Shown: positions 234 to 28,495 of the stretch, piece after piece
Layout of the letters: each line of letters begins with the position of its first letter
Numbering within the stretch: position 1 is the first letter of the stretch
Source of the DNA: Planctomycetota bacterium
GTDB taxonomy: Bacteria > Planctomycetota > Planctomycetia > Gemmatales > Gemmataceae
Assembly: GCA_016872605.1 (NCBI GenBank)
Contig: VGZI01000058.1
Span: 1-32,064 of the forward strand
Length of the DNA: 32,064 nt
Direction: 5' to 3'
Program-made: the position numbers and the translations under genes
Notes under the pieces: generated by a model
What the model saw: only the letters and a program-made list of their open reading frames with translations
Databases searched by the model: none
What the model was told of the DNA's origin: nothing

Positions 234-3200
234 TCACTCCAAACGCAATAACAAATCTCCCGACTCAACCTGCGCCTGCGGGCGCACCAAGACCTCGGCG
301 ATCTTGCCGGCTCGCTCCGCATAAACCGTCGTCTCCATCTTCATAGCTTCGAGCGTGACCAGCTTTTGGCCAGCCGACACCATTTCGCCGGCGACGACGT
401 TGACGCGGACGACCAGGCCGGGCATCGGCGCGCCGATCTGATTCGGATTGCCCGGCTCCGCCTTCGGATGTGTGTGCACGTCAGCGGCCAATGATTGATC
501 GACGACCGATACCTCGCGCGGCTGGCCGTTCAGTTCGAAGAACACCATGCGCCGGCCATCCAGATGCGGATCGCCCACCGTAAGGAACTTGATGAACAGC
601 GTCTTGCCTGGCTCGATGTCAACGCTGATTTCGTCCCCTTTTTCCATGCCGTAGAAAAACACCGGCGTCGGCAGCACGCTGACATCCGAACACTTCGCCT
701 CGTGCGCCAGGAATTCTTCGTGCACGCGCGGATAGAGCACATGCGTGACGGCATCGCGCTCGCTTGCCGGACGTTTCGCCAGCGTCTCAACACGGCGCCG
801 GGCATCGTCGATGTCGGCCGCCGGCAGCTTCGCGCCGGGCCTGGTCGTTAACGCCTTGCGCCCCTTGAGCACGCGATTCTGCAACGCGTCCGGAAAGCCG
901 CCTACCGGCTGCCCGAGCTTGCCCTCGAAAAACTCGACGACCGATTCGGGAAACGCCAGCTCACGCGTGCTATTCGTGATATCGTCCGGCGTCAGGTTAT
1001 TCGCGACCATGAACAGCGCCATGTCGCCGACGACCTTCGACGTCGGCGTCACCTTGATGATGTCGCCGAAGAGTCGATTGACTTCCGCGTACATGCGGCA
1101 ACAGTCGGCCCAGCGCGATTCGATGCCGAGCGCTTGCGCCTGCTGATACAGATTCGTGTATTGCCCGCCCGGCATCTCGTGACGGTAAACCTCGGCGCTC
1201 GAGGCGAACTGGCCCGATTCGAACGGCAGATAGTAGCGCCGGACGCCTTCCCAGTACTGCGCGGTTTCCAGCAGGGCGTCGAAATCCATGCCGGTGTCGC
1301 GCTCCGTGAAGCGCAGGCACTCGACTAGCGTGTTCAGATTCGCCTGGCTCGTCACGCCCGAGAGCGGCCCCATGGCGGCATCGACGATGTCCACGCCTTC
1401 TTGTGCCGCCATCAGAAGCGACGCGATCTGCCCGCCCGCGGAATCGTGGGTGTGAAAGTGAATGGGAATGCCGATCTCTTGCTTGACCGCGCGGACCAAC
1501 TTCTGAGCAGCGTACGGCTTGCAAAGACCGGCCATGTCCTTGATACCGAGCATTGTCGCGCCAAGCTTTTCCAGTTGCTTGGCGAGGTCGACATAGTACT
1601 TGAGGCTATATTTGTCGCGCTTCTTGTCGAGGATATCGCCGGTGTAACAGATTGCCGGCTCGCAGACCTTGCCTTCTTTGCAAACCGTCTCGATGGCCAG
1701 CTTCATGTTGGGAAGCCAGTTGAGCGCGTCGAAGATGCGAAAGACATCGATCCCGGCCCGTGCCGACTCGCGGATGAAGAGTTCGACAACGTTGTCGGGA
1801 TAGTTCGCATAGCCGACGGCGTTGTTGGCCCGCACCAGCATCTGCATCAGGACGTTCGGTATGGCGGCACGCAAGTCGGCGAGACGCTGCCAGGGGTCTT
1901 CCTTCAAGAACCGCATGGCCGTATCGAAAGTCGCGCCGCCCCACATCTCCAGGGAGAAGAAGTCGGCATGGCGGCTCGCATACACCGGCGCAATCTGCAG
2001 CATGTCATAGGTGCGCATGCGCGTCGCCAAGAGCGATTGATGCGCGTCGCGAAATGTCGTGTCGGTGAGCAGCAGCTTTTTCTGCTTACGTACCCATTTC
2101 GCCAGGCCGTCGGGACCTTGCTGGTCCAGTATCTGCTTCGTGCCATCGGTGATCGTAGGCGTCACGCTCCGCGTGACGAGTTCCTCACGCGGAGCGTGAG
2201 GCCTACATTTCGGCAGCGGCGCCGGCGCTCGCGGGACTGCTTTGCGTTTCTCAGGCGACAAGCTCTTCACCGCGGCCTCGTGATGCCCGTTGACAATGAC
2301 CTCGGCGATGTACGTCAGCACCTTGGTTGCGCGATCCTTGCGTTCCGGCAGATGAAACAACTCCGGCGTCTCGTCGAGAAACCGCGTCGTGCAGTTGCCG
2401 GCCAGGAACGCATCATGCTGCACGAGGTTGATCAAAAAAGGGATGTTCGTCTTGACGCCGCGTACGCGGAATTCTTGCAGGCAGCGTTCCATGCGCCGGG
2501 CAGCATCGATGAACCGCAAGCCATGCGCCGTCACCTTGACCAGAAGCGAATCGTAGAACGGCGTGATGACGGCGCCGGAAAACGCCGTGCCCGCGTCGAG
2601 CCGTATGCCCAACCCGCCCGCCGAGCGATAGTGGCTCAGTCGGCCATGATCGGGCACGAATTTGTTGGCTGGGTCCTCGGTCGTCACGCGGCACTGAATC
2701 GCGTAGCCATGCTGGACGATCTTGCTCTGGTCGCCCAGGCCGATCTCCGGGTCGGAAAGCGGCTTTCCCTGCGCGACGAGGATTTGCGATTTGATCAGAT
2801 CGTAGCCGGTGATTTCTTCCGTTACGGTGTGCTCGACCTGGATGCGCGGATTGACTTCGATGAAGTAGAACTGCCGGGTCTCGACGTCAAACAGAAACTC
2901 CACGGTGCTGGCGTTGTCCAAGCCGACAGCACGGCCGATGGCGAGGGCGGAGTCCCAGATGCTCTTGCGAATGCCGTCGTCGAGATTGGGCGCCGGCGCA
3001 AGTTCGACGACCTTTTGGTGCCGGCGCTGCAGCGAGCAATCGCGCTCAAAGAGGTGCACGATGTTGCCGTAGCGATCGCCGATGAGTTGCACTTCGATGT
3101 GGCGTGCACGGGGGATGAATTTTTCGAGGAAGACGTCAGCGACGCCGAAGGCTGTGCCGGCCTCGCGCTGTGCCTGGTCGATGGCGTCGTCGAGTTCCGC

Positions 3201-3755
3201 CTGGGACAGAGCGACTCGCATACCGCGCCCGCCGCCGCCCATCGATGCCTTGACGATGACGGGGTAGCCGAGTGATTTGGCGAGCTTCCGCGCCTTGACC
3301 TTGTCGCCGATCGGTTCATCGCCGCCGGAGAGGATCGAAACGTTGGCGATGCGGGCCAGCTTGCGGGCAGCCAGTTTGTCGCCGAGTTGTTCGAGAACCT
3401 CCACGCGCGGACCGACAAAGGTGATGCCGGCATCGTGACACGCTTGGGCAAAACGCGGATTCTCCGAGAGAAAGCCGTAGCCCGGATGTATCGCGTCGAC
3501 TTCGTGCTCCTTGGCGAGTCGCACAATGGCGTCGATGTCGAGATAGGAACGCAGGGGCTCGCCGGCGGCGCCGACGCGGTACGCTTCATCTGCTTTGAAG
3601 CGATGCAGCGCGAAGCGATCCTCGTGTGCGTAGATTGCGACTGTGCGAATGCCCAATTCGTGAGCGGAACGGAAGACGCGAATGGCGATCTCGCTGCGAT
3701 TCGCGACCATCAATTTGCGAAATGGACGACTGGCCGTAGCCTTCTCTTCCGGCAT
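234..3755 (-). CDS. pyc: Pyruvate carboxylase, with in-frame palindrome insertion
   Basis: Biotin-dependent pyruvate carboxylase (pyruvate + bicarbonate + ATP to oxaloacetate), cytoplasmic and anaplerotic. It is a single-chain enzyme of 1173 aa, the usual family length. The biotin carboxylase domain comes first (KLMVANRSEIAIRVFRSA, glycine-rich ATP loop GGGGRGM, VEFLFDV, IEVNPRIQVEH). The carboxyltransferase domain follows at about residue 555 (LLLTDTTFRDAHQS, FHTHDSAGGQ), and the C-terminal biotinyl domain carries EAMKMET with the biotin lysine near residue 1139. The linker between the first two domains (residues about 517-534) is encoded by a 52-bp palindrome also found elsewhere in the window (HAPREELVTRSVTPT). 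I chose the ATG at 3755, 15 residues before KLMVANRSE; an in-frame GTG at 3788 would add 11 residues with no better ribosome site. No operon partner is visible. Confidence 0.95.
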   Translation of the reverse strand: MPEEKATASRPFRKLMVANRSEIAIRVFRSAHELGIRTVAIYAHEDRFALHRFKADEAYRVGAAGEPLRSYLDIDAIVRLAKEHEVDAIHPGYGFLSENPRFAQACHDAGITFVGPRVEVLEQLGDKLAARKLARIANVSILSGGDEPIGDKVKARKLAKSLGYPVIVKASMGGGGRGMRVALSQAELDDAIDQAQREAGTAFGVADVFLEKFIPRARHIEVQLIGDRYGNIVHLFERDCSLQRRHQKVVELAPAPNLDDGIRKSIWDSALAIGRAVGLDNASTVEFLFDVETRQFYFIEVNPRIQVEHTVTEEITGYDLIKSQILVAQGKPLSDPEIGLGDQSKIVQHGYAIQCRVTTEDPANKFVPDHGRLSHYRSAGGLGIRLDAGTAFSGAVITPFYDSLLVKVTAHGLRFIDAARRMERCLQEFRVRGVKTNIPFLINLVQHDAFLAGNCTTRFLDETPELFHLPERKDRATKVLTYIAEVIVNGHHEAAVKSLSPEKRKAVPRAPAPLPKCRPHAPREELVTRSVTPTITDGTKQILDQQGPDGLAKWVRKQKKLLLTDTTFRDAHQSLLATRMRTYDMLQIAPVYASRHADFFSLEMWGGATFDTAMRFLKEDPWQRLADLRAAIPNVLMQMLVRANNAVGYANYPDNVVELFIRESARAGIDVFRIFDALNWLPNMKLAIETVCKEGKVCEPAICYTGDILDKKRDKYSLKYYVDLAKQLEKLGATMLGIKDMAGLCKPYAAQKLVRAVKQEIGIPIHFHTHDSAGGQIASLLMAAQEGVDIVDAAMGPLSGVTSQANLNTLVECLRFTERDTGMDFDALLETAQYWEGVRRYYLPFESGQFASSAEVYRHEMPGGQYTNLYQQAQALGIESRWADCCRMYAEVNRLFGDIIKVTPTSKVVGDMALFMVANNLTPDDITNSTRELAFPESVVEFFEGKLGQPVGGFPDALQNRVLKGRKALTTRPGAKLPAADIDDARRRVETLAKRPASERDAVTHVLYPRVHEEFLAHEAKCSDVSVLPTPVFFYGMEKGDEISVDIEPGKTLFIKFLTVGDPHLDGRRMVFFELNGQPREVSVVDQSLAADVHTHPKAEPGNPNQIGAPMPGLVVRVNVVAGEMVSAGQKLVTLEAMKMETTVYAERAGKIAEVLVRPQAQVESGDLLLRLE
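2155..2206. repeat. Palindromic repeat family A, copy 1 (inside pyc)
   Basis: A 52-bp imperfect palindrome starting GTAGGCGTCACGCTCCGCG and ending GCGTGAGGCCTAC. It contains two TCACG(C)...GCGTGA modules, so each half can fold on itself or pair with the other half. The same element, also 52 bp, occurs at 27007-27058, and a longer version at 6730-6824. Here it lies wholly within the coding region of pyruvate carboxylase. It is read in the only one of the three frames on that strand that has no stop. Confidence 0.9.
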
Positions 3756-3815
3756 GTTCCTGGTCCCGTAGTGCCGAGAACTTACCACGGTCCGGCTACA
3801 TCTTGCGACCGAGCA

Positions 3816-5542: not shown

Positions 5543-5580
5543 CGTTTAGCGCCCGCCTGACGGCATGCGGGCGCTAAACG
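5543..5580. repeat. Palindromic repeat family B, copy 1 (38 bp)
   Basis: Perfect-arm hairpin starting CGTTTAGCGCCCGC and ending GCGGGCGCTAAACG, 38 bp in total. It lies between two divergent genes, so it cannot be the terminator of either neighbour. Two other copies with the same outer arm and the same length are at 14501-14538 and 20205-20242. Confidence 0.9.
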
Positions 5581-5619: not shown

Positions 5620-6729
5620 ATGCCGACCAAGAATTCGTTTCACATCGCAGTTTTGCCCGGCGACGGCATCGGCATCGACGTGACGGCCGAGGCGGTGCGC
5701 GTGTTGCGTGCTGTCGAAGCCAAGCTGGGCGGCTTCACGCTGACGACGACGACACACGAATCGGGAGCGATCTGCTACAAGCGCACCGGCGAAGATTTGC
5801 CGGCCGACACGCTCGACGCCTGTCGCCGCGCCGACGCCGTGCTGTTGGGCGCCATGGGGCATCCCGACATCCGTAAGCCGGACGGCACCGAGCTGACGCC
5901 GCAAGTGACGTTGCGCGTCAAGCTCGACCTTTACGCCGGCGTGCGTCCGTGCAAGCTCTACGCCGGCGCGCAAACGCCGCTCGTCGATACCAAGCCGGGC
6001 GACATCGATTTCGTCATCTTGCGTGAGCAGACCGAAGGGTTGTTCGCCTCGTTGCAAGCGGGAATCCTGCTGCACGATCAGGTCGCAACCGACACGCTCG
6101 TGATGACACGCCGCGGCATTGAACGCATCTGCGAGTTCGCGTTTTGCCTGGCCCAAGAGGGCACATCTTCACGCCCACCGCGCGCCTCGCCGAGCGTGAC
6201 GTGCGTGGACAAGGCGAACATCTTCAAGAGCTATGCGTTCTTCCGAAAGGTATTCGACGAGGTCGCAGCGGCATATCCGTCGATTCGGAAACAGCACGCC
6301 TACATCGACGCGATGGCGCTTCACTTGGTGCAAAAGCCGGCGCGGTTCGACGTGATCGTGACGGAAAACATGTTCGGCGACATCCTCTCGGATCTTGGCG
6401 CCGGCTTGATCGGCGGAATGGGCATGGCGCCGTCGGCGGACATCGGCGACGATCACGCGGTGTTTCAGCCTGCGCACGGGACGGCGCCCGACATCGCCGG
6501 CAAAGGAATCGCCAATCCGATCGCGGCGATTCTGTCGGCGGGCATGATGCTCGATTGGCTTGGCCGGCGCCACGACCATCGCGACCTCCGACGCGGCGGC
6601 GAGCTTATCGAGCAAGCGGTCATGGATATCCTGGCGAACGGAAATACGTTGCCCGTGGATCAAGGGGGATCGGCATCGACGCAACAGGTTGGAGGAGCCA
6701 TCGCGGAACGTCTCGGCACTTTGAGTTAG
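5620..6729 (+). CDS. Isocitrate/isopropylmalate dehydrogenase family enzyme
   Basis: NAD(P)-dependent beta-hydroxyacid oxidative decarboxylase of 369 aa, the usual size for the family. It has the N-terminal LPGDGIG motif, the substrate helix region [27 protein letters not shown], the lysine segment [10 protein letters not shown], and the metal and nucleotide signature [18 protein letters not shown] followed by [15 protein letters not shown]. The last motif and the length fit 3-isopropylmalate dehydrogenase (leucine synthesis) best, but tartrate- or isocitrate-type substrates cannot be excluded, so no symbol is given. An unusual short insert, [13 protein letters not shown], precedes VDKAN where the family normally has a tight turn. 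No other leu genes are adjacent. A family A palindrome starts at the first base after its stop codon. Confidence 0.85.
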
Positions 6730-6824
6730 GTAGCCATCACGCTCCGCGTGATGAATTGCAGCCGAAAAACACCATGCCTGAATGGGGCCTCCTGCCCCAC
6801 CATCACGCGGAGCGTGATGTCTAC
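6730..6824. repeat. Palindromic repeat family A, copy 2 (long loop)
   Basis: Arms GTAGCCATCACGCTCCGCG and CACGCGGAGCGTGATGTCTAC flank an interior of about 45 bases, giving 95 bp against 52 bp in the other two copies. It begins immediately after the TAG of the dehydrogenase gene and ends 23 bases before the stop of the convergent hybrid kinase. It may therefore serve as a two-way terminator for the convergent pair. Confidence 0.85.
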
Positions 6825-14495: not shown

Positions 14496-14543
14496 GTTTA
14501 CGTTTAGCGCTCGCTTCGCGCCATGCGAGCGCTAAACGTAAAC
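14496..14543. repeat. Palindromic repeat family B, copy 2
   Basis: Core of 38 bp (14501-14538), CGTTTAGCGCTCGC ... GCGAGCGCTAAACG. The pairing extends outwards to GTTTA/TAAAC, giving 48 bp in all. It lies between the convergent oxidoreductase and sigma-factor genes, ending four bases before the sigma-factor stop codon. A two-way terminator role is plausible here, unlike at the other copies. Confidence 0.9.
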
Positions 14544-20204: not shown

Positions 20205-20242
20205 CGTTTAGCGCTCGCGCGGCGCCGCGCGAGCGCTAAACG
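20205..20242. repeat. Palindromic repeat family B, copy 3 (38 bp)
   Basis: 38-bp hairpin, CGTTTAGCGCTCGCGC ... GCGCGAGCGCTAAACG, with a GC-only centre. It sits between the J-like and GrpE-like genes of the same run, 24 bases upstream of the GrpE-like start codon. In this place it could reduce expression of the last gene, or stabilise the upstream part of the message. Confidence 0.9.
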
Positions 20243-26707: not shown

Positions 26708-27088
26708 GGATAACCTCATCAACGAAGATGGATTAGCGCTCATGAAATTGTAAGGGCTTTGACGCCGGAAATCCAATTACTTGGCGATGCAGGGCAAAAA
26801 AGCGCGGGCATGAGGCTGGGCAAGATGCGCCGACGATCCGGACTGTTCAGCTTGCACACACGACGCACGCGGTAGATTCAGAGCGTCCGGATTTGCGCGA
26901 TGTGATTGGGATGACGATGAACGAAGACGGACCCGGAGACGGACAAGGATACGTCTATTTCCGGATGCCCGAACAATCGTTCAAGTTTCGCCAGTCTGCC
27001 AGCACGGTAGGCGTCACGCTCCGCGTGACGGATTCCTCAGGCGGAGCGTGAGGTCCACGATCTCGCGGTGGGCGACAAGGAGGTCCCG
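26708..27088. other. Divergent promoter region
   Basis: About 380 bases between the hydrolase (-) and outer-membrane (+) genes, so both promoters should lie here. I cannot mark confident -35/-10 boxes. A family A palindrome at 27007-27058 ends 19 bases before the strong AAGGAGG ribosome site of the + gene, so it would form part of that gene's 5' leader. Confidence 0.5.
27007..27058. repeat. Palindromic repeat family A, copy 3 (52 bp)
   Basis: GTAGGCGTCACGCTCCGCG ... GCGGAGCGTGAGGTCCAC, the same length as the copy inside pyc and differing at only a few bases. It sits in the leader of the outer-membrane protein gene, just upstream of the ribosome site, where a stem-loop could affect message stability or translation. 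Confidence 0.9.
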
Positions 27089-28495
27089 ATGAGACGAGGA
27101 TTCGCGTGGGTGTTGGGCGTTGCCGCGATCTTGGGTGCGACGTCGACCGCGTCGGCACAGTACCCCTATCCGTATGCGCCGATGCCGTACGGTCCGATGC
27201 CAATGCCGGCGCGGCCGATGCACTACTCGCCGGCGCCGATGATGATGCCCCCCGCGCCGATGTGGCAAGCGCCGACGACGCGAAACACGAACGTGTTCAT
27301 CTACGGCCCGTTGGACGGCACGCCGACCCCGCCGCCGAATCCGCTCATGTACGGCCAACCCCAGCCTCGTCCGACGAAATCGGCTGAGCCGAAGAAGGAC
27401 GCCCAAGCGAAGGAACCGGCGTCCGGCGTAGTGCAACCGCAAGGCACGTTTGTCTCGCGCATGTTGCCGACCTATTCGAAGGCCGAGCTGCCTCCATCCC
27501 ACGCCTGCGCCGGCGCCGACTGCGGGCCGGCGTGCGGTCCGACGGGATGCGGTCCGGCGCCGTATGAGCCGCCGATGCGCGGCAAAGGGCATTTCATCGG
27601 CGAGGTCGGCGCGTTCTTCCTCGTTCCGCTGACCAATTCGCGGAGCGCTTACAACGTCACGGCCGGCGGCGCCACCACGACGACCGATTTCCAGCGCCAA
27701 CTCGACTGGGGTCCGGTCGCTTCCCTCGGTTACGTCTTTCACACCGGCTGGGGTGTTCGTGGCAGTTACCAATACCTGCGCGGCAGCACGAGCTTGAGCA
27801 CGGCCAACGCCGACCCCGCCGTCGGCATTACGACACCATTCGCCGCCTTCCCGGTCGCCTCCCCCGGCGCCACGCTTCTCGCGGGGCTCGGCGTCGATCA
27901 GTACAACTTCACACAACGCCTCGAACGCCACATCGCCGACATCGAGGCGATTCGCGAAGGGCACTTCCTGGACACGACGCTGCTTTTTAGCGTCGGCGCT
28001 CGTTTCGCCCGCCTGGCCCAGAGCTACAACGCCATTCGCCGCAACGCCGGCGGAACCAACGGCGCGGTTTCCGTCGCTCTCGATCGCGAAGAGCTCGATT
28101 CCTACAACCGCTTCGAAGGCTGGGGGCCCACCGTCAGCTTTGAGATCATTCATCCTCTGCGCTGCGGTTTCTCCCTCTATGGCAACGTGCGCGGCTCGTT
28201 CCTTTGGGGCACCGACAAGTTCACGCAGACCTACCACAACGAGAATCGCACGACCAATGCCGGCGTGCCCAACTTCATCGACACGACAACCGTTGCCGAA
28301 ACCTATGACGTCCGTTATGCGTCGATCTTCGAAACGGAGTTCGGCATTCAGTACGGCCATCGCCTGGGCCGTTGCTACTTCTACGCCCGCGCCGGCGGAG
28401 TTTATCAACACTGGTTCGATGTCGGCAATCCAACGAATTCGACAGGCAACATGAGCTTCGTCGGCGGCACGCTCCGCATGGGAATTTCGTACTGA
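27089..28495 (+). CDS. Outer-membrane beta-barrel, Lpg1974/BBP7-like
   Basis: Exported protein of 468 aa. It has a signal peptide (MRRGFAWVLGVAAILGATST, cleavage after ASA), a Pro/Met/Tyr-rich spacer (residues about 25-110, repeats such as PMPYGPMPMP), and a Cys-rich patch (ACAGADCGPACGPTGCGP). From about residue 165 an amphipathic beta-barrel follows, with alternating aromatic strands (GAFFLVPLTNSRSAYNV, GWGVRGSYQYLRGS, GFSLYGNVRGSFLWG, CYFYARAGGVYQHW), ending in an aromatic residue (RMGISY), as barrel proteins do. It matches the Legionella-MOMP-like/BBP7 class, known planctomycete pore candidates. ATG 27089 has a perfect AAGGAGG seven bases away. The spacer's length and Cys patch suggest surface or envelope attachment, which is inferred. 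Confidence 0.8.
   Translation: MRRGFAWVLGVAAILGATSTASAQYPYPYAPMPYGPMPMPARPMHYSPAPMMMPPAPMWQAPTTRNTNVFIYGPLDGTPTPPPNPLMYGQPQPRPTKSAEPKKDAQAKEPASGVVQPQGTFVSRMLPTYSKAELPPSHACAGADCGPACGPTGCGPAPYEPPMRGKGHFIGEVGAFFLVPLTNSRSAYNVTAGGATTTTDFQRQLDWGPVASLGYVFHTGWGVRGSYQYLRGSTSLSTANADPAVGITTPFAAFPVASPGATLLAGLGVDQYNFTQRLERHIADIEAIREGHFLDTTLLFSVGARFARLAQSYNAIRRNAGGTNGAVSVALDREELDSYNRFEGWGPTVSFEIIHPLRCGFSLYGNVRGSFLWGTDKFTQTYHNENRTTNAGVPNFIDTTTVAETYDVRYASIFETEFGIQYGHRLGRCYFYARAGGVYQHWFDVGNPTNSTGNMSFVGGTLRMGISY

Follow-up and report, generated by a model that had tools for sequence, protein, structure and literature searches.

A GTAG-type REP dimer in frame in the interdomain linker of a planctomycete pyruvate carboxylase, and other palindromes in the same linker

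GTAG-tagged REPs and their head-to-head dimers have been described from carriers that include PVC bacteria, Planctomycetes and R. baltica (Di Nocera et al., 2013, PMC3733652). According to the passages of that paper considered here, these repeats combine the GTAG tag with a short stem, loops of 2-3 nt are common, and most copies are intergenic, with some intragenic copies in frame; flexible linkers have been proposed as tolerant sites for the latter. The described case nearest to the pyc linker reported below is recB, where two Xanthomonas species have REPs that differ from each other but sit at nearly the same position (PMC3733652, same passages). In REPINs, two REPs and a spacer can form one hairpin and constitute a single mobile unit (sections of Bertels and Rainey, 2011, PMC3116915), and GTAG beside a short hairpin is the substrate recognized in vitro by REP transposases of the TnpAREP/REP type (parts of PMC8266576). 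Palindromic repeats of about 150 bp that are translated in frame in unrelated genes are known from Rickettsia (Ogata et al., 2000, 2002, as covered in part of the review PMC10969869). Small mobile palindromes are usually regarded as intergenic, whereas the family presented here is part of several enzyme genes, including genes of central carbon metabolism.

The window, the whole stretch of 32,064 nucleotides that was analysed, belongs to a draft genome of 6.7 Mb (G000; 372 contigs, 92.8% complete). It contains pyc, assigned by domain matches and its open reading frame to a pyruvate carboxylase of 1184 aa (234-3788, minus strand), which is the single match in that genome at E <= 1e-200. The Pfam domains biotin carboxylase, HMGL-like (carboxyltransferase), PYC_OADA and biotinyl are all matched, and the gene is intact, including the EAMKMET motif that the original prediction had described as preserved downstream of a palindromic insertion. 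That palindrome was located wholly within pyc at 2155-2206, in the linker that joins the biotin carboxylase domain to the carboxyltransferase domain, as predicted. It is a GTAG-type, REPIN-like dimer of 52 nt, read on the minus strand, whose parts follow one another in the order GTAG, hairpin, short spacer, inverted hairpin, CTAC. Sequence and half-site matches delimit a first REP half at 2155-2178 on the plus strand (GTAG tag, GC, and the hairpin GTCACGC-TCC-GCGTGAC) and a second, inverted half at 2183-2206 on the minus strand (GTAG tag and hairpin). The calculated folding energy of the element is -28.2 kcal/mol (shuffle mean -9.7, z -9.5), a value that none of 200 shuffles equalled. The frame count also agrees with the original prediction: one frame in three is stop-free on each strand, and pyc reads the open frame of its own strand, which encodes (C)RPHAPREELVTRSVTPT. 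Counted from the GTG at 3788, the element occupies residues 528-545; the earlier numbering, about 517-534, fits an ATG start at residue 12.

By anatomy, this 52-nt unit is a REPIN, made of two GTAG-tagged REP hairpins placed head to head. Like the REPINs of PMC3116915, in the sections drawn on here, it consists of two inverted REPs and a spacer that are foldable as one hairpin; with 52 nt and an 8-nt loop it is shorter than the GI doublets of P. fluorescens, in which 71 bp separate the starts of the 16-mers. It shares with the GTAG REPs, as presented in parts of PMC3733652, the tag, the short stem, the 2-3 nt loops, the head-to-head dimers and a mostly intergenic distribution with in-frame intragenic copies. 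The GTAG beside a short hairpin likewise recalls the TnpAREP/REP substrate (PMC8266576, in part); here it was recognized from the sequence, and no linked transposase was found. As with the palindromic elements of Rickettsia, the family is found in frame in unrelated proteins, namely pyruvate carboxylase, enolase, pyruvate phosphate dikinase (PPDK), QueA, transketolase and a Gfo/Idh protein; size and ends set it apart from those elements, most copies being 51-55 nt long with GTAG ends instead of about 150 bp (PMC10969869, in part). Intragenic GTAG repeats, coding palindromes and planctomycete carriers are thus already known, and the element is a further member of that kind.

The same dimer recurs in the window at 27007-27058 (plus strand), upstream of the ORF at 27068-28495; this copy, already noticed in the original prediction, is 90% identical to the one in pyc. 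A long-spacer REP dimer lies at about 6730-6824 (plus strand), its first base directly following the stop codon of the ORF at 5620-6729, which appears dehydrogenase-like by eye. In the genome as a whole, the half-site pattern, with up to 2 mismatches allowed, had 43 matches on many contigs and the reversed-pattern control 0, and scanning 46 loci for dimers produced a list of 41 (with one place entered twice). The family is multicopy, dispersed and mainly outside genes, as is typical of the GTAG REP superfamily. GTAG/CTAC ends are common to 26 aligned copies, with conservation ending 3 nt beyond them; the GTAG columns (G7-G10) are at least 90% identical, and the tag at the hairpin end that marks the superfamily is present. 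Most copies measure 51-55 nt and the long-spacer copies 77-96 nt. Covariation between the arms of the 26 copies is weak: cells with changes on both sides number 3, compared with 0.7 in shuffles, and 11 of 500 shuffles reach that number. From these copies a covariance model (R1) was derived, which matches every one of the 7 genus members and, among 79 genomes overall, 22, including G000; the family is present in more than one species. In G001, one and the same perfect palindrome of 52 nt accounts for 11 of the 23 sampled copies, taken from the best-scoring matches; this is suggestive of a recent burst.

Comparison with relatives shows the pyc linker filled in some genomes and short in others. 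Between conserved anchors, it measures 61 codons in G000 and G004, 58 in G002, and 47-48 in G001, G003, G005 and G006. The wider set comprised 86 linkers, from 82 Gemmataceae genomes, 3 genomes of a sister family and one G006 paralogue, with 4 family genomes left out for their partial genes; the median is 48 codons, and 79 of the 86 have at most 54. In G004 the element has the same site, strand and phase as in G000, with five base differences over 17 codons. The peptide was seen only in these two genomes and, by eye, is absent from the other 84 linkers; an ancestral conserved linker peptide is thereby ruled out, and the conservation in distant pyruvate carboxylases that had been named as contrary to an insertion was not observed. 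The sister comparison proposed in the original prediction thus gave a short linker lacking the peptide in G001, G003, G005 and G006, and the peptide itself in the sister G004. The predicted gain over close relatives is real, but it amounts to a net 13-14 codons (39-42 nt) from a 52-nt element and not to 17-18 residues. Against the best solved relative, 2qf7 from R. etli, the linker is longer by about 18 residues, divided among three gaps. Among relatives about 80-85% identical in protein, whose linker lengths differ, no precise empty site was found for the pyc element. As 52 nt of element brought a net gain of only 39-42 nt, the insertion was less than clean: either 10-13 host bases were lost or the ancestral linker was of another length. 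On a tree of pyc and enolase from which the linker columns were excluded, G000 and G004 pair with a support of 86/89. The G002 linker (L047) contains an imperfect palindrome; the pattern used matches once in G002, in pyc itself, and this single-copy insert was rejected as another repeat and not counted.

The search for other proteins with the element, also proposed earlier, yielded further in-frame copies. Pfam evidence for the host gene was obtained for 7 of the 41 listed dimers of G000, with 21 of 28 crossing ORFs of at least 150 aa scanned; besides pyc, the hosts are enolase, PPDK, QueA, a Gfo/Idh oxidoreductase, the transketolase N-part and an MMPL protein. The verified hosts exclude the MMPL gene (L185), for which no relative was aligned, and a PQQ/BamB-like ORF (L022), an uncertain case with the element upstream of the domain. 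The filled/empty contrast is clear in enolase, in which an insert of 12 to 13 codons between the N- and C-terminal domains is present in G000, G001 and G004 and absent from G002, G003, G005 and G006. The filled species are split on the tree, G001 joining G006 weakly (67/78) and not G000/G004, in a poorly resolved region. For QueA, the element is present in G000, adding 16 codons, and missing from five genus members; for PPDK, it is present in G000 and missing from G008 and G051. In the PPDK gene (L263), a second, different hairpin adjoins the REP dimer, and the two add 35 codons. The transketolase N-part is filled in G000 and G004, the comparison being with paralogues about 45% identical, and the Gfo/Idh gene is filled at the same place in both, compared with filled relatives only. 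In G001, G002, G004 and G006, where the sampled loci were the best-scoring of the listed matches, 40 of 42 ORFs of at least 150 aa crossing them were scanned with Pfam, and only Gfo/Idh was aligned with a relative. Taken as a comparison of sites rather than of movement itself, the contrast is three filled to four empty in enolase, and two filled to four short in pyc, with G002 longer. By impression, central carbon metabolism is prominent among the seven hosts, with pyc, enolase, PPDK and transketolase as its four members.

Other palindromes also lie in the pyc linker. G035 and G041, which belong to two other genera, have in-frame GTAG dimers there, with two other stem sequences. Half-sites of the G041 dimer matched 242 times in their own genome and those of the G035 dimer 132 times, both at up to 3 mismatches and with controls of 0. 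There were also 35 matches of the G041 pattern in G035, and the reversed G035 control gave 2 matches in G002, where the G035 pattern itself has 0. A common origin of these two families and that of the window is possible, since R1 finds matches in both genomes (at least 57 in G035 and at least 49 in G041 among the scored candidates, at most 67) and the G035 stem has the TCC loop in common with the window family. An automatic scan for GTAG-CTAC pairs recovered G000, G004 and G041; in G035 the tags overlap, and this case rests on inspection of the linker and the half-site count. Seven pyc linkers exceed 54 codons, four of them with a GTAG dimer; length alone does not indicate a GTAG insertion, since those of G002, G010 and G100 have none. 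Long hairpins without GTAG ends were also seen in pyc linkers (L208 in G094, L206 in G092, L220 in G037, L216 in G087). In a comparison designed after the inserts had been seen, and with linkers that are not independent, hairpins with stems of at least 12 (one mismatch allowed) occurred in 10 of 86 linker windows vs 3 of 366 flanking windows, and those with stems of at least 17 in 6 of 86 vs 0 of 366.

What is newer in the present observations, and worth following, is that one interdomain linker has been occupied repeatedly, and by different palindromes. No enzyme linker filled by different REP families in several genera appears in the passages of PMC3733652 considered here, and pyruvate, enolase and transketolase are not mentioned in its main text. 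Among the papers listed, from a literature with few subscription journals, none dealt with REPs in pyc or with one linker used repeatedly. Filled and empty sites within one genus, together with other GTAG families in the same linker, form a natural series for studying how a protein withstands, and then retains, an insertion of mobile DNA. This series also bears on the question of whether new coding sequence repeatedly enters proteins at interdomain linkers.

Very probably, a non-autonomous REPIN of the GTAG superfamily, resident in a Gemmataceae genus, entered the pyc linker in an ancestor common to G000 and G004; the same process is seen in other enzyme genes. Entry between the biotin carboxylase and carboxyltransferase domains would have cost about 10-13 host bases. 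The gene survived, now with 13-14 extra linker residues, since its overall gain in length is divisible by three and the element is read in its open phase. By analogy with REPINs, movement would have been driven by a RAYT-type Y1 transposase acting on a single-stranded DNA hairpin. The original prediction that the element is mobile or was mobilised is supported by the multicopy family and the filled and empty relatives; active mobility itself remains an inference, with no RAYT tied to the family. REPINs have a RAYT partner in the sections of PMC3116915 drawn on here, whereas none was found for this family: the 8 Y1_Tnp loci of draft G000 had no GTAG-tagged half-site within flanks of up to 1.5 kb (shorter at contig ends), their best NCBIfam RAYT score was 73.7, below the cut-off of 80, and no Y1-like ORF occurred in the sampled element loci. 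Tolerance is the likeliest reason for the persistence of the pyc insertion; insertions elsewhere or out of phase would have been purged, and the linker may have been occupied repeatedly because it is length-tolerant. The one open phase, which tolerated insertions were earlier suggested to keep, need not be an adaptation, as it follows from where stop triplets fall, which leaves an open frame in 199 of 200 copy-strands; special selection for it was rejected on this ground.

Copies shared by G000 and G004 have changed little at third codon positions. These differ at 1 of 17 in the pyc element vs 35.6% in the gene (P 0.006; 11 of 999 gene windows as low), at 2 of 17 vs 36.0% in transketolase (P 0.027; 12 of 234) and at 4 of 17 vs 48.6% in enolase (P 0.032; 44 of 422), the enolase case being weak on its own. 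Simple neutral ageing does not explain these figures; arm-to-arm correction, DNA-level constraint or, for pyc, parallel insertion could lie behind them. Consistent with arm correction, the two arms of the G000 enolase copy carry a paired change when set against those of G004 and G001. Separate gains of the pyc element by G000 and G004 at the same site, favored by the third-position figure for pyc and by the use of this linker as a recurrent landing site, are decidedly unlikely, given that the two agree in orientation, phase and linker length, that the transketolase and Gfo/Idh copies are also common to both, and that the shared G004 copies are 52-nt whereas 12 of 21 sampled G004 copies are 51-nt; the pairing of G000 with G004 on the tree points the same way, with a support that is not of the top level.

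The palindromes of the pyc linker might instead be kept for a function, for instance as an mRNA hairpin that lies between the coding halves of the two domains and slows ribosomes during folding, or for a preferred linker length, and have been recruited repeatedly by selection. The excess of linker hairpins over flanking ones would fit, as would stem sequences that differ between genera, the few third-position changes in shared copies and the location of the enolase insert, likewise at a domain boundary. Such retention is nonetheless unlikely: 76 of the 86 linker windows lack such a hairpin, the hairpin has decayed in G004, where 16 of the 20 outer pairs are left (19 in G000) and the reading frame is intact, and linkers accept insertions anyway. 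In-gene copies of G000 are also paired no better than others (mean arm mismatches of 3.1 of 22 in 7 copies vs 3.4 in 29, p 0.58), and neither was faster decay of in-gene copies borne out by these values. It is similarly doubtful that the Gemmataceae pyc linker is a convergent landing pad on which mobile palindromes serve as raw material for an interdomain control element, aiding folding or regulation through a strong mRNA hairpin or through the spacer length that comes with it. A chance palindrome in ordinary coding sequence or an assembly artefact, in favor of which only the draft status of G000 can be cited, is scarcely conceivable in view of the z-score of the fold, the 43 vs 0 matches and the presence of the element in a second genome, G004.

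Two further observations concern variants and neighbors of the inserted REPIN. In versions of 51 nt (L185 in G000; L290, L305 and L342 in G004), it is another frame that is open (for example VDLTLRVR); as their length is a multiple of three, they could insert into genes with no frameshift. A separate family of 38-nt palindromes (CGTTTAGCGC...GCGCTAAACG) lies between the main ORFs of the window at 5543-5580, 14501-14538 and 20205-20242; these are possibly terminators or another repeat.
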